Part shown: positions 27,716 through 50,018 of the stretch, in pieces
Position numbering within the stretch: position 1 is the stretch's first letter
Layout of the letters: every line of letters starts with the position of its first letter
NCBI RefSeq assembly: GCF_958298935.1
Contig: NC_084932.1
Coordinates: forward strand, 11,697,501 to 11,761,500
Length of the DNA stretch: 64,000 nucleotides
Source of the DNA: Phragmites australis
Lineage: Eukaryota > Streptophyta > Magnoliopsida > Poales > Poaceae
Reading direction: 5' to 3'
The notes under the pieces: model-generated
The model's input: the letters and a program-made list of their open reading frames with translations, nothing else
What the model was told of the DNA's origin: nothing
Databases searched by the model: none
Position numbers and translations under genes: made by a program

Positions 27716-27810
27716 TGATGAGCCCACAGCTCCTTTAGATACAATTAATACTACTAATATTCCTCAAATCATACAAGGTCCAATTACAAGAGCACGTGCA
27801 TGATAATTAG

Positions 27811-29649
27811 TGATAGGGGAAAACCCGTGGGTTGGCTCGATCTTCACGGCAGTAGGTACGACAAGAGATAACTTGCTGAAAAATGCAGTGGGATAACTAG
27901 CTTTATACCTGACAAAGGTTGGAATGTGGCCAAGTAATGAGGAGAGAGGCACTGAATCCTTGGACTCGACTCGATCTCCACGAACTCAAGAACACAAACC
28001 GGGTAGCTTTAGACTTGGTCAAGGTTGGTTGCGACCAAGCGACGGGGAGAGAGGCACCGAAACCTTGATGGATTTCGACTCGATCTCCGAACGACAGCAG
28101 AACCACAAACCGGGACTAATCCACACAAAACAGTGCAGCCTAACTGGAAACCGTAGAGCACGAATTAGGGGGTCCTAGAGGGACCTTCACATATATACCA
28201 GTGAATCAGTCTCTCACAAGTCGATGAAGAACTCGCAAGAAATTTGGGGTAAGTCACTCAACTGCTCTTGGCTGGAAACACCATCTGGTGGATTTTCTTA
28301 ATTCATAATCGTGCCCCCTTTGGCTTAGATACAGTAGGTATTTATACTAGGAACACCCCTCCTAGCTAGGTGTGAAAGTTCTATAAGTTTCCACGAAAAT
28401 AAAGGGAGATGAAAAGGGGAAAACATGGGTTCCCGAGAAGCCTTGCGTGATCCTCCTAGCTAGGTGTGAAAGTTCTATAAGTTTCCACAAAAATAAAGGG
28501 AGATGAAAAGGGGAAAACATGGGTTCCCGAGAAGCCTCGCGTGATCCCCGTGGGTTGGCCCGATCTTCACGGCAGTAGGTACGACAAGAGATAACTTGCT
28601 AAAAAATGCAGTGGGATAACTAGCTTTATACCTGACAAAGGTTGGAATGTGGCCAAGTAACGAGGAGAGAGGCACCGAATCCTTGGACTCGACTCGATCT
28701 TCACGAACTCAAGAACACAAACCGGGTAGCTTTAGACCTGGTCAAGGTTGGTTGCGACCAAGCGACGGGGAGAGAGGCACCGAAACCTTGATGGATTTCG
28801 ACCCGATCTCCGAACGACCGCAGAACCACAAACCGGGACTAATCCACACAAAACGGTGCAGCCTAACTGGAAACCGTAGAGCACGAATTAGGGGGTCCCA
28901 GAGGAACCTTCACATATATATCGGTGAATCGGTCTCTCACAAGTCGATGAAGAACTCGCAAGAAATTTGGGGTAAGTCACTCAACAGCTCTTGGCTGGAA
29001 ACACCATCTGGTGGATTTTCTTAATTCATAATCGTGCCCCCTTTGGCTTAGATACAGTAGGTATTTATACTAGGAACACCCCTCCTAGCTAGGTGTGAAA
29101 GTTCTATAAGTTTCCACGAAAATAAAGGGAGATGAAAAGGTGAAAACATGGGTTCCCGAGAAGCCTAGCGTGATCTTCAGCCTCCCTGGCAGTCTTCACT
29201 TAAATGGTCATTACTCCTTAATGGGAAGTCGAAAAGATGAGCCGTTTATTGGAGGTGAAAGTAGACTTGATTATCTTTCTGTCCATGTGCATTATGCATG
29301 GTGAATCTTGACCAGTTTTTGCGTGTGTCTCTTGGAACATGGCTCTGATGTCAGGAGTCAGTGTGATGGTTCAGCTTCTGCGTAACTCGTCTCCTTCTCG
29401 GTGTAACTTGTCTCCTTTGGTCCAGCAGCAGCTCCAATATGCGTAAACCTTAGCAATACAAAAGTAGAACATTTAGGTAGTATAAAATTCTCATTTGTAT
29501 TGTAATCAAATTTAGTAAGGAGAGAGTTCACCTCTTGCTGCAGTTTCCTTGCACGACTCCGTGTGATGGGTCCTTGTATTGGTGTAATTGGTGCTTGACT
29601 TGTTTCAGCTTGTCCATGGCTTGGCACATTTGCTGGGAGGTCCTCATCA
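27811..29649 (-). mobile_element. Solo LTR C in the 5' LTR of B (1839 bp)
   Basis: ATTAG occurs on both sides (27806-27810, 29650-29654). Read on the minus strand the element begins TGATGAGGACC and ends CCCCTATCA, as LTRs do. Minus-strand 29627-29440 encodes GPITRSRARKLQQEVNSLLT, the pol C-terminal tail that related elements carry at the start of the 3' LTR. There is no primer-binding site, gag or pol core, so it is a solo LTR. It is enlarged by an internal 723-bp tandem duplication. Confidence 0.85.
27824..29190. repeat. 723-bp tandem duplication inside solo LTR C
   Basis: 27824 onward and 28547 onward match closely (CCCGTGGGTTGGC to AACATGGGTTCCCGAGAAGCC). At the join a 94-bp segment beginning CCTAGCTAGGTGTGAAAG (28361 and 28455) is also doubled, which suggests a stepwise duplication with slippage at that point. 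Confidence 0.9.
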
Positions 29650-30476
29650 ATTAGACCACCAGGTGAACTTGTTTCTCGCTGCTCATGCTTCCTTGGATGG
29701 ATTACTACTAAATTCTTGTGATGTTTTATTTCTTAGGAATGTGGGAGAAGCACCACAACCTTACTCGGATGTCACCCCTCGAAGGCCATGTCTACTCAGA
29801 CTCGAGGCTGAGCTCTAGCCGTGTTCATGGTCGTGGTCGAGTTCTAGGACAGCACGTCAATAAAACGGGCATAACTTTTGCATACGGAGTCCAATTGAGG
29901 TGTTTTTGAACTCTTTGGAAAGCTATTGACCTAACATTTTCAATGGATAAGAGCTCCACTAAATATTACAGATATTTTAGTTAGATTCAAAGAAATAAGG
30001 TGCTACACCACTACTGTGGACCTTGTTGGGTTTTATAATCGTGTCAGGGTTGGAGTCCAGGTTGTACACGCCTCTTTCCATGGTTGCACAACCTTAAGTT
30101 GATCTCCTCACGTCCCTACTATATATACAAAGTAGACATCGTAGTTTAGGCTTGAGTTTTAGCTTAGATTATTCTGTTTTAGATAGTTTCGCCATTTATC
30201 AGTTTGTTGAACCCCAACTCGAGTACTTCATTGGTAATTAGCAATATTCACATTGCATTTACCTGTTCTTGCTTGTGTTCTTGATTCACTTGCAAGAAAA
30301 AGCTTCTTAGCGAGGTCAACCGCGTCTTGGCATGGTTGATTACCATGGAGTAGTGGTGTAGTTGTTGCGAGGGTTCTCGATCTGTTCTGTTCAGAGCTTT
30401 TGGATCATCAACGTCGAAGCTCCACCAATCAACTTATCATATTACCTTTCAGAAGATCGGGCAAACACACATCAAG

Positions 30477-31855: not shown

Positions 31856-32141
31856 ATGGCAGGAGAAGTATCGGATGCGAAAGAGTGTGTTTTGAGGGAA
31901 GAACTCACAATGTTGTTGGATGATCATTGACAAACTATTAATGATGATATTAACAAGAAGCTTGCGAGAACCAATACTGCGTTGCAACAACTCAATGAAA
32001 GCATTGCAATGCTCAATATATGCATTGATCGATTGGTTAATCCGCTACCGAACAATGGTCGAGTGGATCCTCATGGTGCAGCCTATGAACAAGAGGAGTC
32101 CATTGCGGATGATGAAATTTTGAGACAAGAACGTGACACCT
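31856..32141 (+). pseudogene. gag of element B, 5' part
   Basis: It starts ATGGCAGGAGAAG at 31856, as in element A, and runs through a predicted coiled-coil stretch with QQLNESIAMLN and the acidic EQEESIADDEILRQE. An early in-frame TGA occurs at 31928. It is interrupted by D at 32142 and continues at 44264. Confidence 0.78.
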
Positions 32142-32833
32142 TGTAACAACTTAATTTTTCTAATTCTAAAATTTTCTCTATATTTGTTAAAGTTCAAATG
32201 AGTTTAAATATTTTATTTAAAAAGAGAGAAAACCCAATTTTATATGAAAGAAAAAGAAAATGACATAGAAAACCCTATTTCATGCTGGATTAGGCAAATA
32301 AGATTTTTATTTGATTTTTGATGAATTTATTTGAAGAGTTTTTGCCTGGATTTTGAATTTGAATTTGGATTTTGAATTCATAGGAAAAAGAAAAAGAATA
32401 AAATCTCTTCAGGACTGCCTTTCCTCTTTTCGGCCCACTTCATCCTCGGCTTCGGCCCAGCCGCCGCCGATCTCTCTCACCCGGGTCGCCTGCCTCGGCC
32501 CAACTCCGCGCACCAGCCCGCGCGCCGAGCCACTCACCCGAGCCGCTGACATGCGGGTCCCGCATGTTAGAGCCTTCTTCCTCCTCAGTCGGACTCCGAC
32601 TCAGAGACGGGAACGCGTCGGCCGCCGTCTCCCGTTAAAATCCGAACCCAAGCCGAACCCGAGAGCTTCTAGAGAGTTCCCAAATCAAATCCCCGGGATC
32701 CCCTCTATCTTTACCCGGCCTTATCTCTAAGGAAATCGCGGATTTGAGCTCGGATGCATCTCCTCGCCGCCGTGTCCGAGTCGATCCGCCGTCGCACTGG
32801 AGTCCTAGCGCACCACGCCCTTCCGAACCCGCC

Positions 32834-32840
32834 TATATAG
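32834..32840 (+). promoter_or_regulatory. TATA box of the D LTR
   Basis: TATATAG in a GC-rich setting (CCCGCCTATATAGCTAGC), conserved at 41753-41759 in the 3' LTR. If used, transcription would start about 30 bases on, giving a leader of about 2.6 kb before the extra ORF. Confidence 0.55.
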
Positions 32841-33908
32841 CTAGCCCGAACCCCCTTGACCAGTTCCCATCGCCAATTCGCCAAAACCCGAGCCTCCTCG
32901 CCGAGATTCATCTCCCTGCCGATGCCACAGCCGCCGCCTCTGCACGAGCTCACCGCCCCGTCGATCCCGAGCATCCCGGAGCCTTCCAAGCCCACCATCG
33001 GAACCACGTGACCCCACAGAAGCTTTTTCAGCCCTCGCCACCACTGATTGATCGCCAGAGCACCCTCTCCGACGAGTTCCCGAGGCAGCCGCCGCCCCCT
33101 TCCGTCGTCGACCACCTTCCCGTGCCGCGCCGCCTTCGGTAAGCCCCAAAACAAGATCGCCGTTTCCTTCTCGTCGTGTTCCACCGCTTGTCGTCGTGAT
33201 CCAAGGCCGGGGATGAGGTTTGCGCTTGTCTCCGGCGAGTCGTCGCCGTGCCCGAGCTCGGCTCCGCCGAGGACCACCCTGTCGACCGCCCAAACCTTCC
33301 CCAACCGTCAAATCCGAAGCCCTCAGCCCAGATTAGATCTGTTCTTACCCCTTCGATCAACCAATCAGAAGCTGCCACGTGTTGCCACTTCACCCAGTCA
33401 GCAGCCATGCCATATCACCCATACACCTCAGCCGCCACCTCAACCTTTCTGCTGATGTGTCACCCTTGTCACCATGCCATGTCAGCCAGAGCTACCCAGT
33501 CAGTAATTCAAACCTTTTTCAGTATAAAAATAAATCTGATATTTTCTTTAATTGGTAATTTTGCAATTTAGCCCCTGAACTTTTCTAAAATAACAAAAAG
33601 AGCCCTATCTTTTACAGTTAGGTCCCTATACTTTTTCATAATTACATTTTGGTCCCTCTGTTGTTACAAAAAGGTCCCTGGACTTTCTGTTAATTCAATT
33701 TAAGTCCTTTTCTTTTTCCAGATTTAACCCTAGACTTGTTTTAGCCCTAACTTTTCCATCGTAACTCCGATTTAAGCGGTTCTTGCGCCGATGGATTCGT
33801 TTTTCAGTGTTCTTTCTTTTTAGCCAGTTTTTATCTTGTTGTTCTTTTGTTTTGTGCTCTGTTCTTAGTGTATCTTGTTTGTTTGTTTGGCGGTAATTGT
33901 GCGATTAG

Positions 33909-35071
33909 CCGATAACATTACGGATCAATTTGAAGAACAGCAAGACCAGGAGCAAGAATACACTGAGCAGCAGCAAGGAGAAGGCAAGTATCCTTGATCA
34001 TATTGAACCTATATTTTTAAATGTTTTGTTTTACAAAACTGCATGCAATGTCTATCAATATGATGGGTAGTCACCTATGTTAGGGTTTTTCCCTAGATAT
34101 TCCCTTATCATTCCTTGGAACCTAGATGTTTTATGGGTAGATTGCTTAGCCTTGCTTTTGGGATATTGGGAAGTGTCATAATTTTGACTAATGAACATAT
34201 GCAGTAATGATGGTTAATATGATAATGTTTTAGCAACATGGAATCTTAGGTCTTGAGCATAGGGATGTTGGTGATAGTTGTCATGGTTATGATATTGGTT
34301 TAGTATTTGCTCAAGTAACCTAAGTAAGGACCGGTTCGTGGAGCGACAACCCAAGAAGTGACGTACCAACCACGAGGCTGATATGGGTAAGGTGTGACAT
34401 ACTAATTAGAGTCTGTCCAGTGTACGTTGGGTCAGCACAAAAGGGGGCTTCTGGGTAGGAGCTTTGCTTGCGTAAAGCCTGGCGGTGAAACCTAGTGGGC
34501 AGACATGCACTGGATTAGTCTCTGGTTAGTGGAAAGTGTCATACAGTGATTCTTGGCGGCACACCACTGACGTGTGTTAAGTGTCTTGCAAACACGGCTA
34601 CATAGAATTCACTGACTCGTGGGTAAAGTTGGACAACCTCTGTAGAGTGTAAAACTGTTATAACAGCCGTGCTCACGGATATGAGAGACTTGGATCCTCA
34701 CATGATTAGATGGTGGTTTGGTTTTGGTTCTGGTACAGGGAGTACTAGATGTTGTGGTTTTGGTCTTAGTACAGGGCGTACTAGACGGTTGTGGTATGCA
34801 GGGTGGGGAACCTTGTATGCTAAATGATGGATAGTTGGGTTACATTCATTTAATACGTGTCTAATGCTTTTGAGTCCAAATGTGTTTTCATTACTCGCAT
34901 TTACGCAAATGTTACCTTGTGTCAGCCTATTCTTGATATAAGCCTGCATGTCATTATTTTCCCACACTTGCTGAGTACATTATGTGCTCACCCTTGCTTT
35001 GTCCTACCAAAAACATATGCTGCTCAGTGGAAGACTTTGAGGATTTCCAAGACGACGACCTGGTGTTCTAA
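33909..35071 (+). other. Possible spliced acidic mini-ORF within the D LTR
   Basis: A Gln/Glu-rich frame (DQFEEQQDQEQEYTEQQQGE, exon 33909-33983) follows an AG. It is followed by GCAAGT, a GC-type donor. A second acidic frame (EDFEDFQDDDLVF, exon 35028-35071) follows a CAG and ends in TAA. Joining them across the 1044-bp gap keeps the frame, forming a Val codon. The 3' LTR copy (42828-42902 and 43964-44007) preserves donor, acceptor, phase and stop; the QEQEY and QDDDLVF frames survive with mostly silent changes. An upstream GT donor (33139) could supply an earlier exon. The initiation codon is not identified. Confidence 0.4.
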
Positions 35072-35327
35072 GGAGCATGTCTTCCAGTCGGTGCCTGTGG
35101 AGTTTTGGTCGCCAATGTTTTCGTCCCGCTGCCGTCGTTTAGATGATGTCGTTTAGGTTAAATTTTGAGGTTGCTTAGGTGAAGTCTTTTATTGTAAGAA
35201 GTGAACGTTTGATTATTTAAAGTATTGCTTTTGTTACTTCACCTATGACGTCCTTATGTGTGTTAAACTTCCTGGGCACACATAAGCTGCACTTGGTTTT
35301 GGCCGTTAAAACCGGGTGTGACAGAGG

Positions 35328-35340
35328 TGGTATTAGAGCC
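35328..35340 (+). promoter_or_regulatory. Primer-binding site of chromovirus D
   Basis: TGGTATTAGAGCC, four bases after the LTR end, matches the initiator tRNA-Met complement with one transition. Confidence 0.85.
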
Positions 35341-35490
35341 ATACTGACTGTAGGATCGCAAGCCTAGTTAGCATGGTCGTCCTAAGGAATTGCGTAGTCG
35401 TCTAAACCCATCCAAGCCTTTCCATAGTTCTCAAACTTGTCTCTTGCTATCCATAAGACTATTTCTTACATCCCATCTCTTCCTTTTTAG

Positions 35491-36282
35491 ATGGTTCGCC
35501 AGCTACTTACTGCCCGCAAGTCAACCGGAGGACGTCCACCTATTCTACCACGTGTGCCAACTGAAGAGGAGATTGATAACCCCACCTTTCGGAATATGGA
35601 TCCCGTTCCTGACGTTTATGAGAGTGATGGTCTTCATGCTGGGCATCTTCCGCGCCTTCTTTGGGGGATACTTTCTGGACTTGGACATACTCAGAAGCCA
35701 GTCTACAAGGGAGTGAAGAAACTATACCCTGGATATGTGGAATGGAAGGTTGAAGTCACTATTTATGACTACGAGCGAAGTCAAGACAAGGGTATGGAAG
35801 TTCGAAGAGTGGTGGGCATTCACTCAGCAATGGTCCCGAGAGCAACCTTCACCGCTGGAGTTCGAGATGCGGCTCGACAAGCCATATCCCGTGTTCGTGA
35901 TCAATACAACAACAAGATGGATAACTCTCCGTATGCTTACTGTCCCCGCAGAACTCGGGGAAGTGACGAATCGTTCGTGAAGAGCACCTTTGGAGAAAAC
36001 CCCAAGCTATGAGAGCAAGTTGCCCTTACCATGGCCTTGGAGGATGAGCTCAACTGTGCTTCATGGGAGTTGGGAGAAGTTCGCCAACACCTTGCCTTCG
36101 TCTCCGCTTCCCTTGAGGATGAACAAGATGCAAATCAAGAGGAATCTGAAGATGACGAAGAAGACTTGTCAATCCACTCGCCCCCGCGCAAGAGGATCTG
36201 CTTCAACACCCTCGCCGCCTCTGAGGATGGATCAGTTGATTCCTCCCCCTCTGGGTCCCGCACTAGAGAGGAGTCCCAGTAG
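35491..36282 (+). pseudogene. Extra ORF of D with a histone H3 tail-like N-terminus
   Basis: A 263-residue frame between primer-binding site and gag, broken only by TGA at 36010-36012 (codon 174). It begins MVRQLLTARKSTGGRPP. Histone H3 after its Met reads ARTKQTARKSTGGKAP. Counting from the residue after Met, ten of 16 positions agree (2, 6-13, 16), including Arg8, Lys9 and Ser10; Lys4 is Leu and Lys14 is Arg. The middle (residues 40-165) contains HLPRLLWGILSGLG and EVTIYDYERSQ, which I cannot place in a family. The C-terminal part has an acidic run (EESEDDEEDLS) and a basic PPRKR patch near residue 231, possibly nuclear targeting. The ATG directly follows CTTCCTTTTTAG, a splice-acceptor-like sequence. 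Role unknown; I infer histone mimicry. Confidence 0.8.
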
Positions 36283-36553
36283 TGTAGTCATTCCATAGTA
36301 GTCTTTTCCTTATTAGAACCTAGCGTCGATGTAATCGTTAAGGGTAATATTAATGTTAGTGTGAGCTTTGTTATGGTGCTAAGTGTGCAAGTTGGAGTTT
36401 TTGCTTGAGTGCTGATGCGAGCTGTGGGATGCTTTGGCACTTTGTCCACAGACGCATCTTTATTTCTATATAATATAATATAGATGGGTTTCTTTAGTTA
36501 AACTTCTCCAGACTTGCTTAACTACTTCTGTTCTTTTCTTCAACCCTAACCAG
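36283..36553 (+). other. Spacer between extra ORF and gag of D
   Basis: This is 271 bases, AT-rich, ending in a pyrimidine-rich tract and CAACCCTAACCAG directly before the gag ATG, which again resembles a 3' splice site. No coding frame is visible. Confidence 0.5.
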
Positions 36554-39500
36554 ATGGTTAACACAAGGAGGAGCATTAACACTCAAGAGGAGAACAACAA
36601 CAACTAGAACCCACCCCCGCCCTCTCCATCAACCTTGGAGCAGCATATGGCTATGCAAACTCAAATCTTGCAAGCTTTAGCTCAAACAATGGTGCATATG
36701 CAACAACAACAACCAAACCATATTCCTCAACCACATCAACCATCAAGGCTTGGAGAATTCAAATGAACTCCAGCCCCAGTCTTCAGTCATGCAGTGGTAC
36801 CAATGGATGCAGATGATTGGCTGAAGGATATAGATAGGAAACTACACGTTGCTCAGTGCAATGATAGGGAGATGGTTCTCTACGCCTCACATCAACTCAC
36901 TGGTCAAGCCCTAGATTGGTGGGAAGCCTACTGCGCAGCACACGAAAACCCTGCATCTATCACATGGATGGAGTTTAAAGCTAGTTTCCGCACCCATCAT
37001 CTTTCCTCTGGAGATGTACGTCTGAAAAAGAAGGAGTTCATGAGTTTGAAGCAAGGACCCATGACTGTGAGGGAGTACCTAACCAAGTTTACTCAGTTAT
37101 CCAGATACGCACCCAATGAAGTGGACACAGAGGAGAAGAAATAGGAACATTTTCTGGAAGGCCTGAATGACGCCATAGAATATGCGTTGCTACCCCAGGA
37201 GTTTCCCAGTTTCCAAGCATTGGTAAACAAAGCCCTAATGGTTGAGCACAAGCGCCGCCAGCTGGAAGAGAAGAAGAGGAAGATGTCATTCCAAGGACAA
37301 GGAAGCAACACACGATCCCGTGGAGCTACATAGATGTCTCCGCAAGGCCCCATGTTTTGTTCCAACGTTCAGTATCGGACTCAGTCACAAAACTTTGTTC
37401 AGCGCTCCAACTATCAGACGCCCCGATCAACCCCACCAGCCACACCTCAAACCAAGAACAGTCCAGCAACTCCAGGCCCAAACAAGGGATGTTTCTATTG
37501 TGGAGAAGAAGGGCACTATGTGAATAAATGCCCTAAAAAGACGCAAGATCTGGCCTGAACCAACAACACACCAAGGACAACTCCAACCCCAGCCCAGTCA
37601 CGCAATGGAAGTCAGAACCCCAGCCAGAATAATCATGGACAACAGAACTATGTGCATGGGAAGGTCAACCATGTCACAGGAGAAGAGGCTAATGATCCTC
37701 AAGATGTGGTGTACGGTATGTTCCTCGTTAACTCCCGACCTGCATCTGTTTTATTTGATTCTAGAGCTTCGCATTCTTTTATCACCATTCAGTATGTTGC
37801 AAAGCATGGATTGCCTATGGTTATGATGAAGAATAATATGTTTATTAGCTCGCCTGGAGGGAATTTGAAGGCAAAATATATATGTCTTAGGATGAGGCTT
37901 AGCATAAGGGGGGTAGAATTCCCCGCGAACCTTATAGTTTTGGAAACCAATAGCATAGACGTAATCCTTGGAATGGATTGGTTAGCCAAGTTCAATGGAG
38001 TTATAGAATGTGCCAGAAGAGCAGTTCACCTGACCAATGGAGAAGGTACCAAGGTAGAGTTCGTAGCCACGGAACCAGCAACAGAGGATCGGTCTCTCTA
38101 TTCACTTGAAGGAACAACCATTGAGCAGATCAAGATAGTTTGTGAGTTTCCCGATGTCTTCCCCGACGAATTGCCAGGTATGCCACCTGATCGAGAAGTC
38201 GAGTTTGTCATTGAGTTGGTACCTAGTACGGCCCCTATAGCAAAAAGGCCATATAGGATGTCGGCTAACGACCTAGTCGAATTAAAGAAGCAAATTCAAG
38301 AGCAGTTAAGCAAAGGTTTTATTAGACCCAGTGCATCACCTTGGGGAGCCCCAGTTCTTTTCGTAGATAAGAAGGATGGTAGCCGAAGGATGTGTGTAGA
38401 TTACAGGGCACTTAATGAGGTAACCATTAAGAACAAGTATCCGTTGCCCCGGATTGAGGATTTGTTTGATCAGATGAGAGGAGCCCAGGTGTTCTCCAAG
38501 ATTGATCTAAGATCAGGATACTATCAGCTGAAGATTCGACCGTCGGATGTACCAAAGACGGCTTTCAGTACTCGATATGGGCTATACGAGTATACAGTTA
38601 TGTCATTCGGATTGACCAATGCCCCAGCCAACTTCATGAATCTCATGAACAAGGTATTCATGGATTATTTGGACAAGTTTGTGGTGGTGTTCATTGACGA
38701 TATTCTAATCTTCTCCGGAAGCAAAGAAGAACACGAAGGACATTTGAGAATTGTGCTACAGACACTCAGAGAACATCAGCTGTATGCCAAGCTTAGCAAG
38801 TGTGATTTTTTGTTAGACCAAGTCGCGTTCCTTGGCCATATCTTAACCGCCGGAGGTGTAGCGGTAGACCCTAGTAAAGTGAAGGAAGTACTGAATTGGT
38901 TACCACCAACCAACGTGTCAGAAATCAGAAGCTTTCTTGGATTAGCAGGGTACTATCGCCGTTTCATACAAGGGTTCTCTAGGATAGCCCGACCTTTTAC
39001 CTCTTTGCTTCAGAAGAATGTGGTGTTTAAATGGAGTCCTGCTTGTCAGGCAAGTTTTGAAGAACTGAAGAAGAGATTGACTACGGCCCCAGTGCTAGTT
39101 TTACCCGATATTAGCAAAAACTTTGATATCTACTGTGATGCTTCGCGACAAGGACTTGGATGTGTTCTTATGCAAGAAGGTCGAGTCGTGGCCTATGCGT
39201 AAAGACAATTAAGGAAGCATAAAGAACACTACCCCACACATGATTTAAAACTAGCAGCTGTAGTTCATGCTCTGAAGATTTGAAGGCATTACCTCATTGG
39301 AAAATGATGTGAAATATACACGGATCATAAGAGCTTGAAGTATATTTTCACTCAACCGGATCTAAACCTTCGTCAGCGCAGATGGTTGGAGTTAATTAAA
39401 GATTACGATGTGGGAATTCACTATCACCCAGGAAAAGCAAATGTTGTGGCTGACTCCTTGAGCCGGAAAGGTTAATGCAATTTGATGATGGTTAAAGATA

Positions 39501-41032
39501 ACCAACCTGGGTTATGGAAAGAGTTTGAAAAGCTCAACCTTGGATTTGTGGCAGACATGGAAACAACCACCATGAAAGTAGATTGTACCCTTGAACAAGA
39601 AATTCAGAAAAGTCAACTGGAGGACGAGAAGCTCAAGGGAATTAGACATCTTATTAAGGAGGATAAAGCTCCAGGTTTCACGGAAGATAGTCAAGGTACA
39701 ATATGGTTCAAAAAGAGAGTTTGCGTACCCAACCGGGAAGATATTAAAAAGACAATTCTGAGAGAAGCTCACGAATCAGCTTACTCCATTCACCCTGGGA
39801 GTACTAAGAGGTATCATGATCTTAAGGATCGTTATTGGTGGTATGGAATGAAGAGAGAAGTTGCAGAATATGTAGCTCTGTGTGATACTTGTCAAAAAGT
39901 CAAAGCAGAACATCAGAGACCAGCAGGTTTACTGCAACCCTTGAAGATACCTGAGTGGAAGTGGGAAGAAATCGGTATGGATTTTATCGTTGGATTGCCC
40001 CGTACCCAGAGTGGATATGACTCTATTTGGGTGGTAATTGATCGCTTGACAAAGGTCGCCCATTTCATCCTAGTAAAAACCACGTATAATGGAGCTAAAC
40101 TAGCAGAGCTGTATATGTCAAGAATAGTATGTCTGCATGGAATACCAAAGAAGATTGTTTCGGATAGAGGAACTCAATTTACCTCTAAGTTTTGGCAGAA
40201 GCTGCATGAGTCTATGGACACGAAGTTGAATTTTAGTTCTACCTATCATCCTCAAACAGATGGTCAAACAGAAAGGATGAATCAAATATTGGAAGATATG
40301 CTGAGAGCGTGTGCTCTTAAGTATGGAAAAAGTTGGGACAAAAGTTTACCTTATGCTGAGTTCTCGTATAACAACAGTTATCAGACAAGCCTCCAAATAT
40401 CTCCCTTTGAAGCCTTGTATGGGAGGAAATGTAGAACACCGCTGTTCTAGAATGAGACGGGAGAGAGTCAGGTTTTTGGACCAGAAGTTCTACGAGATGC
40501 AGAAAAACAAGTTCAGGTGATTCGGGAAAATCTGAAGATTGCACAGTCCAGACAGAAAAGTTATGCGGATAATAGACGAAGAGAATTGGTTTTTGAAATT
40601 GGGGATGTCGTCTATCTTAAGGTCTCGCCAATGAGGGGTCTTCGTAGATTTAAAGTTAAAGGAAAGTTGTCACCAAGATTCATCGGGCCTTTCAAGATAT
40701 TGGGTAAAAGGGGAGAAGTGGCTTATCAGTTGGAATTACCACCTCAGCTGTCAGATGTGGACGATGTTTTTCTTGTTTCCCAGTTGAAGAAGTGTCTTCG
40801 GGTACCAGAAGAACAATTACCTATGGAAGAATTAGACATTCAAGAAGATCTCTCCTATATAGAATACCCTGAGAAGATTCTTGAAAGATCGGAAAGAGTA
40901 ACTAGAACCAAGGTAATACCAATGTCCAAAGTGCAATGGAGTCACCACTCGGAAGACGAAGCAACTTGGGAAAGGGAAGAAGATCTGCAAGCGGAGTTTC
41001 CTCATCTCTTCTCTGTTCCAGGGGATTCTTGA
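36554..41032 (+). pseudogene. gag-pol polyprotein of chromovirus D
   Basis: A single frame of 1493 codons with no frameshift but ten internal stops (36605, 36764, 37142, 37331, 37556, 39200, 39281, 39305, 39473, 40448). Capsid-like gag comes first (36794-37250: LTGQALDWWEAY, MTVREYLTKFTQLSRYAP), then one zinc knuckle CFYCGEEGHYVNKC near 37490. Protease has DSRASHSF near 37757, with Arg where the active-site Gly is expected. RT has [17 protein letters not shown] and catalytic FIDD (38690-38701). RNase H has [10 protein letters not shown] and YTDHKSLKY. Integrase has the HHCC zinc finger, MDFIVGLPRTQSG, SDRGTQF and [13 protein letters not shown], so the D-D-E residues remain. A chromodomain closes it. 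The product would be particle, protease, polymerase and integrase. Confidence 0.93.
40861..41010 (+). other. Chromodomain at the integrase C-terminus of D
   Basis: The segment YPEKILERSERVTRT, then VQWSHHSEDEATWEREEDLQ, has the chromodomain pattern: a beta strand with the central Trp, then ATWE and a C-terminal helix. It fits the plant Tekay/Del type, in which some aromatic-cage positions of HP1 are not kept; here Trp is kept but the residue three later is His. In the family this domain targets integration to heterochromatin marked by methylated H3. That is notable given the H3-like ORF in the same element. Confidence 0.82.
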
Positions 41033-41048
41033 GGGCGAGATTCATTCC

Positions 41049-41062
41049 AAGGGGGGTAGGTT
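41049..41062 (+). promoter_or_regulatory. Polypurine tract of chromovirus D
   Basis: AAGGGGGGTAGGTT lies immediately upstream of the 3' LTR TGTAACACC, where plus-strand DNA synthesis would be primed. Confidence 0.8.
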
Positions 41063-44000
41063 TGTAACACCCTAATTTTTCTAATTCTAAAATTTTCTCA
41101 ATATTTGTTAAAGTTCAAATGAGTTTAAATATTTTATTTAAAAAGAGAGAAAATCCTATTTTATATGAAAGAAAAAGAAAATGACATAGGATATAAGTGA
41201 ATATTTTGCATTCATGCTGGATTAGGCAAATAAGATTTTTATTTGATTTTTGATGAATTTATTTGAAGAGTTTTTGCCTGGATTTTGAATTTGAATTCAT
41301 AGGAAAAAGAAAAAGAATAAAATATTTTCTGGGCTGCCTTTTCTCTTTTCGGCCCACTTTCTCCTCGGCTTCGGCCCAGCCGTCGCCGATCTCTCCCACC
41401 CGGGCCGCCTGCCTTGGCCCAACTTTGCGCGCCAGCCCACGCGCCGAGCCACTCACCCGAACCGCTGACATGCGGGTGTCGCATGTCAGAGCCTTCTTCC
41501 TCCTCAGTCGGACTCCGACTCAGAAATGGGAATGCGCCGGCCGTCGTCTCCCATTCAAATCCGAACCCAAGCCAAACCCGAGAGCTTCTAGAGAGTTGCC
41601 AAATCAAATCCCCGGGATCCCCTCTATCTTTAGCCGGCCTTATCTCTAAGGAAATCGCGGATTTGAGCTCGGATGCATCTCCTCGCCGCCGTGTCCAAGT
41701 TGATCTGCCGTCACATTGGAGTCCTAGCGCACCACGCCCTTGTGAACCCGCCTATATAGCTAGCCCGAACCCCCTTGACCAGTTCCCATCGCCAATTCGC
41801 CAAAACCCGAGCCTCCTCGCCGAGATTCATCTTACTGCCGACGCCACAGCCACCACCTCTGCACGAGCTCGCCGCCCCGTCGATCCCGAGCATCCCGGAG
41901 CCTTCCAAGCCCACCATCGGAACCACGTGACCCCACAGAAGCTTTTCCGGCCCTCGCTACCACTGATTGATCGCCGGACCACCCTCTCCTACGAGTTCCC
42001 GAAGCAGCCGCCGCCCCCTTCCATCGCCGACCACCTTCCCGTGCCGCGCCGCCTTCGGTAAGCCCCAAAACGAGATCGCCGTTTCCTTCTCGTTGTGTTC
42101 CGCCGCTCGTCGTTGTGATCCGAGGCCGACGACGAGGTTTGCGCTTGTCTCCGGCGAGTCGCCGCCGTGCCCGAGCTCGGCTCCGCCGAGGACCACCCTG
42201 CCGACCGCCCAAACCTTCCCCAACCGTCGGATCCGAAGCCCTTGGCCCAGATTAGATCTGTTCTTACCCCTTCGGTCAACCAATCAGAAGCTGCCACGTG
42301 TTGCCACTTAACCCAGTCAGCAGCCATGCCATGTCACCCATCCACCTCAGCCACCACCTCAACCTTTCTGCTGATGTGTCACCCTTGTCACCATGCCACA
42401 TCAGCCAGAGCTACCCAGTCAGTAATTCAAACCTTTTTTAGTATAAAAATAAATCCGATATTTTCTTTAATTGGTAATTTTGCAATTTAGCCCCTGAACT
42501 TTTCTGAAATAACAAAAAGAGCCCTATCTTTTTACAGTTAGGTCCCTATACTTTTTCATAATTACATTTTGGTCCTTCTATTTTTACAAAAAGGTCCCTG
42601 AACTTTCTATTAATTCAATTAAGTCCTTTTCTTTTTCCAGATTTAACCCTAGACTTGTTTTAGCCCTAACTTTTCCATCGTAACTCCGATTTAAGCGATT
42701 CTTGCGTCGATGGATTCGTTTTTCAGTGCTCTTTCTTTTTAGCCATTTTTTGTCTTGTTGTTCCTTTGTTTTGTGCTCTATTCTTAGTGTATCTTGTTTG
42801 TTTATTTGCCGGTAATTATGCGATTAGCCGATAACGTTTCGGATCAGTTTGAAGAACAGCAAGACCAGGAGCAAGAATACACTAAGCAGCAGCAAGGAGA
42901 AGGCAAGTGTCCTTGATCATATTGAACCTACATTTTTAAATGTTTTGTTTTACAAAACTGCATGCAATGTCTGTCAATATGATGGGTAGTCACCTATGTT
43001 AGGGTTTTTCCCTAGATATTCCCTTATCATCCCTTGGAATCTAGATGGTTTATGGTTAGGAGTCTTTTATGGGTAGATTGCTTAGCCTTGCTTTTGGGAT
43101 ATTGGGAAGTGTCATAATTTTGACTAATGAACATATGCAGTAATGATGGTTAATATGATAATGTTTTAGCAACATGGAATCTTAGGTCTTGAGCATAGGG
43201 ATGCTGGTGATAGTTGTCATGGTTATGATATTGGTTTAGTGTTTGCTCAAGTAACCTAAGTAAGAACCGGTTCGTGGAGCGACAACCCAAGAAGTGACGT
43301 ACCAACCACGATGCTGATATGGGTAAGGTGTGACATACTGATTAGAGTCTGTCCAGTGTGCGTTGGGTCAGCACAAAAGGGGACTTCTGGGTAGGAGCTT
43401 TGCTTGCGCAAAGCCTGGCGGTGAAACCTAGTTGGCAGATATGCACTGGATTAGTCTCTAGTTAGTGGACAGTGTCATACAGTGATTCTTGGCGGCACAC
43501 CACTGGCGTGTGTTAAGTGTCTTGCAAACACGGCAACATAGAATTCACTGACTCGTGGGTAAAGTTGGACAACCTCTGCAGAGTGTAAAATTGTTATAAC
43601 AGCCGTGCTCACGGATATGAGAGACTTGGATCCTCACATGATTAGATGGTGGTTTGGTTTTGGTTCTGGTATAGGGAGTACTAGATGTTGTGGTTTTGGT
43701 CTTAGTACAGGGAGTACTAGACGGTTATGGTATGCAGGGTGGGGAACCTTGTATGCTAAATGATGGATAGTTGGGTTACATTCATTTAATACGTGTCTAA
43801 TGCTTTTGAGTCCAAATGTGTTTTCATTACTCGCATTTACGCAAATGTTACCTTGTGTCAGCCTATTCTTGATATAAGCCTGCATGTCATTATTTTCCCA
43901 CACTTGCTGAGTAAATTATGTGCTCATCCTTGCTTTCTCCTACCAAAAATATATGCTGCTCAGTGGAAGACTTTGAGGATTTTCAAGACGACGACCTGGT

Positions 44001-44258
44001 GTTCTAAGGAGCGTGTCTTCCAGTCGGTGCTTGTGGAGTTTTGGTCACCATAATTTTCGTCTTGCTGCCGTCGTTTAGATGATGTCGTTTAGGTTAAATT
44101 TTGAGGTTGCTTAGGTGAAGTCTTTTATTGTAAGAAGTGAATGTTTGATTAAATAAAGTATTGCTTTGTTACTTCACCTATGACGTCCTTATGTGTGTTA
44201 AACTTCCTGGGCACACATAAGCCGCACTTGGTTTTGGTCGTTAAAACCGGGTGTGACA
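41063..44258 (+). repeat. 3' LTR of chromovirus D (3196 bp)
   Basis: It begins TGTAACACC and ends GGGTGTGACA. It is collinear with the 5' LTR with scattered substitutions and small indels. It retains the TATATAG (41753-41759) and both acidic exon candidates with their splice-like borders (42828-42902, 43964-44007). Confidence 0.93.
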
Positions 44259-44263
44259 CACCT

Positions 44264-49135: not shown

Positions 49136-50018
49136 TGATGAGCCCTTGGCTCCTTCAAATACGATCAATACTATTAATATTCCTCAAATCATAAAAGGTC
49201 CAATTACAAGAGGACGTGCACGACAATTAGACCACCAGGTAAACCCGTTTCTTACTACTCATGCTTCCTTGGATGGATTACTACTAAATTATTGCAATGT
49301 TTTATTGTTTAGGAATATGGGAGAAGCACCACAACCTTACCCGGATGTCATCCCTCGAAAGCCAAATCTACTCAGACTCGAGGCTGAGCTCTAGCTGTGG
49401 TCATAGTCGTGGTCGAGTTCCAGGACAGCACGTCAATAAAATAGGCATTACTTTTGCATACAGAGTCCAATTGAGGAATTCTTAGACTCTTTGGAAACCT
49501 ATGCACGAGACATTTCCAATGGATAAGAGCTCGACCAAATATTTCTTATATTTTAGTCAAGGTCAAAGAAAGGTGCTATGCCACTGTTTTGGACCTAGTT
49601 GGGTCTTGTAATCATGTCGGGGTCAGAGAGTCCATGTTGTACATGCCTCATTCTGTGGTTACAAAACCCTACGTCGGTCTCATCACGTCCCTCCTATATA
49701 TACACAGTAGCCAACATAGTTTAGGATTGGGTTTTAACTTAGATTATTCTATTTTAGACAGTTTCTCCATTTCATTAGTAATTAGCAATATTCAGATTCC
49801 ATCTACCTGTTCTTGCTTATGTTTTCAATTTGCTTGTAGGAAAAGCCTTCTTGGCGAGGTCAACTGCGTCTTGGCACGGTTGGTAACCATGGAGTAGTGG
49901 TGTAATGGTTGCAAGAGTTCTCGATCTGTTCTGTTCGGAGCCTTTGGATCATCAACATCGAAGCTCCACCAATCAACTTATCATATTACTTTTTGGAAGA
50001 TCGAGCAAACATGTATCA
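49136..50018 (+). repeat. 3' LTR of element B (883 bp), with pol C-terminal tail
   Basis: It begins TGATGAGCCC and ends ATGTATCA. An open frame at 49146-49394 within the LTR reads IPQIIKGPITRGRARQLDHQ and continues to a stop at 49394. It is in the position of the pol C-terminus and resembles the basic TRARAR tail of related elements. The LTRs of A and C have homologous coding. A and B LTRs share a phrase near 49490-49530 with TTTGGAAACC. Confidence 0.88.

Follow-up and report, generated by a model that had tools for sequence, protein, structure and literature searches.

A Histone H3-Like Tail at the Start of ORF0

Why would an accessory protein of a retrotransposon begin with residues that read like the N-terminus of histone H3? 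The question is raised by a 64,000-nucleotide stretch of contig NC_084932.1 (the window, here meaning this whole stretch), in which a long terminal repeat (LTR) retrotransposon at 32142-44258 has all of its parts present and yet is dead. Between the end of its 5' LTR (35323) and its gag ATG (36554), this element carries a 5' accessory open reading frame (ORF) on the sense strand, called ORF0 here; the placement is that of the window element only.

35491..36012, plus strand: ORF0 as it stands, 173 codons from the ATG and then a stop at 36010-36012
35491..35541, plus strand: H3-tail mimic MVRQLLTARKSTGGRPP, the N-terminus of ORF0 (first 17 codons), the family profile of which matches histone H3

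A first-pass annotation had reported that MVRQLLTARKSTGGRPP and mature H3, both counted after Met, are identical at positions 2, 6-13, and 16 in the same register, and recomputing the comparison confirms this. A TAG codon lies in frame immediately upstream of the ORF0 ATG, so the H3-like block is N-terminal unless an upstream exon is joined to it by splicing. The window frame stays similar to its homologues up to 36279, beyond the stop at 36010. One homologue (P0002) aligns by tblastn to 35554-36279 (96.7%) and reads through the site of the window stop, which indicates that intact copies of ORF0 exist elsewhere.

Three protein searches (E <= 0.01), two of which scored about 8,000 candidates each, yielded 64 distinct homologues. 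Those with a named organism come only from grasses (Urochloa humidicola, Eleusine coracana, and Digitaria exilis). With the window protein counted, 35 of the 65 family members have an H3-like tail, and 34 of these tails are in exact H3 register; the tail of P0035 is short by one residue. It follows the first Met in 33 of the 35 proteins; in the other two (P0052 and P0059) a predicted extension comes first and the tail follows an internal Met. The earlier description of the mimic as N-terminal and locked in register thus extends to the family. Tail-bearing proteins include those of U. humidicola and D. exilis as well as P0020, a cluster that represents 40 member sequences.

The remaining 30 members begin downstream of the tail, 7 of them without a Met and 23 with one. 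Of the latter, 18 begin in the core of the protein or later, four (P0010, P0013, P0014, and P0030) begin in the linker, and P0040 has a different, unaligned start. These 30 may be fragments, mis-started models, or genuine tail-less versions. No intact related element lacking the block was found among the 65 members, although the 23 Met-started downstream homologues could conceal such elements. The homologues presumably also lie within retrotransposons; scans of viral and genome contigs for relatives gave pattern matches, none of which was confirmed as relative-encoding DNA.

The family evidence, rather than the window tail alone, settles the H3 likeness at the level of sequence. Alone, the window tail reaches a best E of 0.048 in the PDB, which is marginal, and the best 60 of its 101 rows are all H3. 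A profile built from 22 of the in-register tails and searched against 177,635 distinct PDB sequences gives 137 matches at E <= 10 (best E = 1.4e-7), of which the best 60 are all histone H3, and it aligns H3 residues 1-19 on its own residues 1-19. Permuting the columns of these 22 tails abolishes every PDB match. An 18-tail profile without the most H3-like clade and without the window tail still reaches E = 1.5e-6, and the best 60 of its 137 rows are only H3 or H3 fusions. By chance, one N-terminus would match H3 at 10 or more of 21 positions with p = 1.5e-7 under a general composition; with the basic composition of the tails themselves, p is 3.9e-6. Neither value is corrected for the number of ORFs and motifs that a reader could notice.

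The closest single match is the tail of P0054, ARTYLTPRKSTGGRFPRGQLA, which agrees with H3 at 15 of 21 residues; its clade matches 13-15 of H3 residues 1-21. This tail alone finds H3 in the PDB at E = 2.9e-4 (best 60 of 129 rows all H3). At six positions (A1, T3, R17, Q19, L20, and A21) it matches H3 where the window tail fails. This gives p = 2.1e-5, the strongest value among 21 tails put through the same test; a further two members of the clade have p = 3.2e-4, and for the rest, which add little, p lies between 0.004 and 1. The sequence mark of a histone H3-tail mimic, an in-register match at the protein N-terminus, is thus present. After its initiator Met, the predicted ORF0 product begins with a peptide homologous to or closely mimicking H3 residues 1-9 to 1-21, which many divergent family members retain.

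Constraint on the Tail and Its Origin

The 34 in-register tails keep the H3 residue most often at T6 (34), K9 (33), R8 (31), A1 and R2 (28 each), T3 (27), and P16 (26), followed by S10 and T11 (21 each) and K4 (17), and K14 is kept in none. Position 4 carries Y, L, or R in the 17 tails without K4. Position 5 is hydrophobic in 28 tails and Q5 is present in 3. Position 7 is A in 12 tails and otherwise P (22 of 34, mostly as TPRK), and S10 is lost in 13; neither P7 nor the loss of S10 is expected to suit every H3K9 reader. The first-pass annotation had called the mimic specific to Lys9. This holds for the window copy and fails in the family, where K4 is kept in half of the tails and A1-R2-T3 widely. 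The tail is followed by a linker of about 10 to 160 residues, and the whole stretch before the core, tail included, is 31 to 183 residues long.

A tree was built on the core of 33 proteins, with the tail excluded, and rooted at its midpoint. It has three deep groups; 17 of its 30 inner branches are open, and long branches are flagged. Between the deep groups, tail residues 1-9 are identical at 65.8% and tail residues 10-21 at 14-20%. The best of 88 nine-column core stretches reaches 64.3% in the same comparison, and the mean is 24.9%. Tail residues 1-9 are thus conserved slightly above the best core stretch, by a narrow difference that is to be read with the facts that this block was picked after the tails were seen and that two search profiles included tails. 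Such a pattern is expected of a constrained short linear motif whose distance from the N-terminus is fixed.

As to origin, the first-pass annotation had left open a captured H3 exon or convergence. At the root, Fitch parsimony resolves 11 of the 21 positions unambiguously to the H3 residue, includes it among the options at 8 more, and excludes it at positions 14 and 18. Because the root and many forks of the tree are unsure, these states are indicative only, and an H3-like ancestor is just weakly favoured over late convergence. Descent from a captured host H3 N-terminus is plausible because the root states are mostly those of H3 and one clade is H3-like out to residue 21. Most likely, a host H3 N-terminus would have been captured and would then have drifted at residues other than the contact set A1-R2-T3-T6-R8-K9.

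A Predicted dsRBD-Like Core

The remainder of ORF0, on which the first-pass annotation had made no observation, is predicted to resemble a double-stranded RNA-binding domain (dsRBD). The fold was modelled with AlphaFold2 (AF2) for P0004 and P0054 and compared with other structures; the window protein was placed by alignment.

35611..35904, plus strand: dsRBD-like domain of ORF0, boundaries approximate, corresponding to P0004 residues 32-126 in a 65-member alignment

The models have a low-confidence tail and linker, which are probably disordered, followed by a domain with the alpha-beta-beta-beta-alpha fold of a dsRBD and by a long helix. The core models are nearest to domains of the plant proteins DRB7.2, DRB4, HYL1, and DCL3/DCL4, with which ORF0 would share its predicted core fold. 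The relatives' ORF0 proteins end in an SPxRK-type stretch that resembles a nuclear localization signal (NLS). These models predict that ORF0 joins an H3-like tail to a dsRBD-like domain.

The likeness to plant dsRBD proteins has no counterpart at the sequence level. The core profile has one PDB match at E <= 10, a proteasome subunit, and no dsRBD; a Pfam comparison of the core has no dsRBD in the best 25 of 50 families. Foldseek alone gives no match at E <= 0.001 in the PDB or viral libraries, its best PDB row being the second dsRBD of DCL4 (E = 0.22). In dsRBDs, a basic KKxAK sequence at the start of helix 2 serves dsRNA binding. It is absent in the 14 members read (e.g., FAAGIGDAAR, FTAGVRDAAR, and SDDVAVNDAAR), one of which has a single K and several a single R at this point. 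A true histone was considered and ruled out, as no histone occurs among the Pfam matches (including the best 25 of 50 families) and the core of the model is dsRBD-like.

Comparison with Known Systems

Gao et al. 2012 (PMC3485330) described ORF0 of Retrosat2 and its relatives, which is present in the grass elements and not in their dicot and Selaginella homologues, gave Ka = 0.257 and Ks = 1.647 for four Oryza elements, and proposed metabolic-enzyme roles from homology models. The known grass 5' accessory ORFs (Retrosat2, RIRE3, RIRE8, ZMsat2, Sorsat2, and Sb7) likewise lie in sense orientation upstream of gag-pol in chromodomain elements, and the LTRs of Retrosat2 exceed 3 kb, as do those of the window element. 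They are predicted to be nuclear and, in maize and sorghum, to have a long C-terminal helix. The window ORF0 is likened to those of Retrosat2, RIRE3, and RIRE8 by position and description, not by sequence.

A study in sunflower (PMC11728184) found weak DRBM-like structure in the maize and sorghum 5' accessory ORFs (TM 0.35-0.37) and suggested modulation of silencing, so the dsRBD likeness was suggested earlier, more weakly, with no mention of an H3 tail in its main text. The word histone is absent from the main texts of PMC3485330, PMC11728184, and the accessory-ORF review PMC7264820. It is used once in the text of PMC6317226, a survey that found extra ORFs of at least 250 codons in 3,372 Ty3/gypsy elements and left their function open. 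Among the titles and abstract openings of the matches listed from the open-licence literature, no H3-tail mimic in a plant transposon appears, and the match listed for ARTKQTARKS with retrotransposon concerns a mouse retrotransposon. We know of no other transposon-encoded H3-tail mimic.

Histone-tail mimicry itself is known, and it is the setting in a plant retrotransposon accessory protein that is surprising. The SNAG domains of SNAI1 and GFI1 are, like the ORF0 tail, H3-tail mimics at the N-terminus of non-histone proteins, and they occupy and block LSD1 (PMC5896174, PMC12612597). They differ in belonging to animal transcription repressors. Their sequence is also less H3-like than the ORF0 tails. 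ARKS-type mimics in G9a and other non-histone substrates (PMC10611923, PMC9768651) also place an H3K9-like motif in a non-histone protein. ORF0 differs from them in matching residues 1-9 to 1-21 at the N-terminus of a transposon protein that has a dsRBD-like domain. ARKS-type mimics are usually internal and cover few residues. A functional analogy is offered by VANC of the Arabidopsis VANDAL transposons, a transposon-encoded accessory protein that counters silencing. VANC is a different protein of DNA transposons with sequence-specific action, and we know of no H3 tail in it.

Possible Roles of the Tail

Plants silence retrotransposons partly through H3-tail methylation. Interference with H3-directed silencing appears to be the likeliest role of ORF0, and we give about even chances to an anti-silencing factor the tail of which competes with or diverts this silencing. 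The initiator Met would be removed, the mature protein would enter the nucleus, and its free N-terminus would be presented to host readers, writers, and erasers of H3-tail marks. There the tail might compete with or divert H3K9me2/CMT and the H3K4me0-K9me readout of RNA-directed DNA methylation, while the dsRBD-like domain might engage RNA or the DCL/DRB machinery. The conserved residues A1-R2-T3-T6-R8-K9 fit proteins that read a free N-terminus plus R8-K9. With P7 frequent and residue 5 mostly hydrophobic, simple docking on a chromodomain is disfavoured, and the candidates left are writers, K4/K9 dual readers, and LSD1-type erasers. The decoy function put forward in the first-pass annotation is a plausible candidate role.

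A more specific and clearly more tentative proposal is that grass chromoviruses combined a captured H3 tail with a dsRBD-fold module into a two-armed antagonist of chromatin and RNA silencing. The tail would form one arm and occupy either LSD1-type erasers or the writers and readers of K9; the other, dsRBD-like arm would engage DCL/DRB proteins. A family of presumed retrotransposon accessory proteins carries at its N-terminus a likeness of the H3 tail that silencing targets, kept across deep divergence, beside a predicted fold of the RNA-silencing type. This would bear on the abundance of chromoviruses in heavily methylated genomes. The function of 5' accessory ORFs becomes addressable by simple peptide-binding and reporter tests, for which the family supplies natural H3-tail variants (P7, Y4, and L5) already tried by evolution.

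The best-surviving alternative, which we consider unlikely, is that the tail is a SNAG-like ligand of the LSD1-family demethylases (FLD and LDL1-3), blocking H3K4 demethylation or recruiting the enzyme. SNAG has F4-L5, and the ORF0 tails have a hydrophobic residue 5 in most members and Y, L, or R for K4 in half of them. Met-4 H3 peptides such as 2v1d (with 4gur), which we take to be LSD1 and LSD2 complexes, rank among the best PDB matches when the P0054 tail or the window tail is the query. The SNAG papers cited above also provide a precedent for an N-terminal H3 mimic that occupies LSD1. However, constraint is strongest on T6, R8, and K9 rather than on position 4. The Met-4 ranking may simply reflect M outscoring K against Y or L, and Met-4 peptides do not lead when the family profile is used.

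Somewhat less likely again is a targeting or assembly handle. In this reading CMT3, SUVH, or ADCP1-like proteins, or the integrase chromodomain of the element itself, would bind methylated Lys9 and so anchor the particle or its cDNA in heterochromatin. R8-K9 is nearly invariant, the same element encodes a chromodomain, and the relatives' C-terminus is like a nuclear signal, all of which would suit such a handle. In chromodomain-type binding A7 is buried, and the P7 of 22 of the 34 tails should hinder it. Moreover, the group II plant chromodomains, Tekay's included, lack the first and usually the third aromatic residue of the cage, and plant CHD_II had no known interacting factor according to the same paper (PMC3350952).

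The tail is improbable as a mere basic motif for nuclear import or nucleic-acid binding, with an accidental likeness to H3 and with TPRK as a phosphorylation or NLS motif. Histone tails do act as import signals, the ORF0 tail is basic, and P7 occurs mostly as TPRK. But the tails agree with H3 in register from the N-terminus, at the non-basic residues A1, T3, T6, S10, T11, G13, and P16 too, and one clade also matches Q19-L20-A21. The profile finds only H3 in its best PDB rows, and permuted columns of the same composition match nothing; on this control a simple basic motif was ruled out. Chance resemblance in one decayed ORF, or an assembly artefact, would suit the broken window copy with its marginal match (E = 0.048), but this explanation is refuted, with practically no probability left to it, by the 34 homologues that carry the tail, including the two named grasses and the 40-member cluster.

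The Host Retrotransposon

The element that carries ORF0 has the following parts in addition to those given above.

32137..32141, no strand: target-site duplication CACCT, 5' copy, directly before the 5' LTR and matching the 3' copy
32142..35323, plus strand: 5' LTR of about 3.2 kb, which starts TGTAACA and ends GTGTGACA
35324..35345, plus strand: primer-binding-site region GAGGTGGTATTAGAGCCATACT, assigned from sequence
36554..37555, plus strand: gag region (Retrotrans_gag PF03732 and CCHC zinc knuckle), frame interrupted by stops
37559..39199, plus strand: protease, reverse transcriptase, and start of RNase H (PF08284, PF00078, PF17919)
39476..40447, plus strand: integrase, H2C2 zinc-binding domain and core (PF17921, E = 5.7e-18; PF00665)
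40451..41029, plus strand: integrase C-terminus with chromodomain (PF24626; PF00385, E = 3.1e-6)
41063..44258, plus strand: 3' LTR, from LTR alignment and sequence
44259..44263, no strand: target-site duplication CACCT, 3' copy, directly after the 3' LTR

The two LTRs are 94.05% identical across 3,212 columns. The sequence GAGGTGGTATTAGAGCCATACT resembles the complement of the 3' end of initiator tRNA-Met. The integrase core match (PF00665, E = 2.8e-7) scores 31.2 bits, slightly below the cut-off of 32.6. Paired LTRs with a target-site duplication, the order gag-protease-reverse transcriptase-RNase H-integrase, and an integrase chromodomain together identify a Ty3/gypsy chromovirus. The chromodomain contains DEATWERE, which is one letter off the Tekay motif EEXTWEXE (PMC3350952), and gene order and this motif suggest an element of the Tekay/Del type. 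The host of ORF0 is a plant chromovirus, probably from a grass.

Immediately upstream of two start codons, that of ORF0 (35491) and that of gag (36554), lie pyrimidine-rich tracts that end in AG (35470-35490 and 36533-36553); GTT follows each ATG, and the sites resemble splice acceptors. Both strands of the window together have 169 AGATG sites, of which 6, the ORF0 and gag sites among them, have such a tract (at least 75% pyrimidine over 20 bases). The ORF0 and gag mRNAs could be produced separately by alternative splicing. The ORF0 leader also contains an upstream ORF of ten codons (MVVLRNCVVV, 35373-35405). Past the window stop, the SPPRKR basic stretch of the homologue C-termini is still encoded in frame at 36178-36195.

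Direct repeats at 27716-30474 and 49136-50018, 86-87% alike and about 19.5-21.4 kb apart, flank the retrotransposon, which may have inserted inside another repeat. Three copies of a 94-base unit lie at 28358-28545 (two in tandem) and 29081-29174, adjoining a 300-base direct repeat at 27824 and 28547 (spacing 723).
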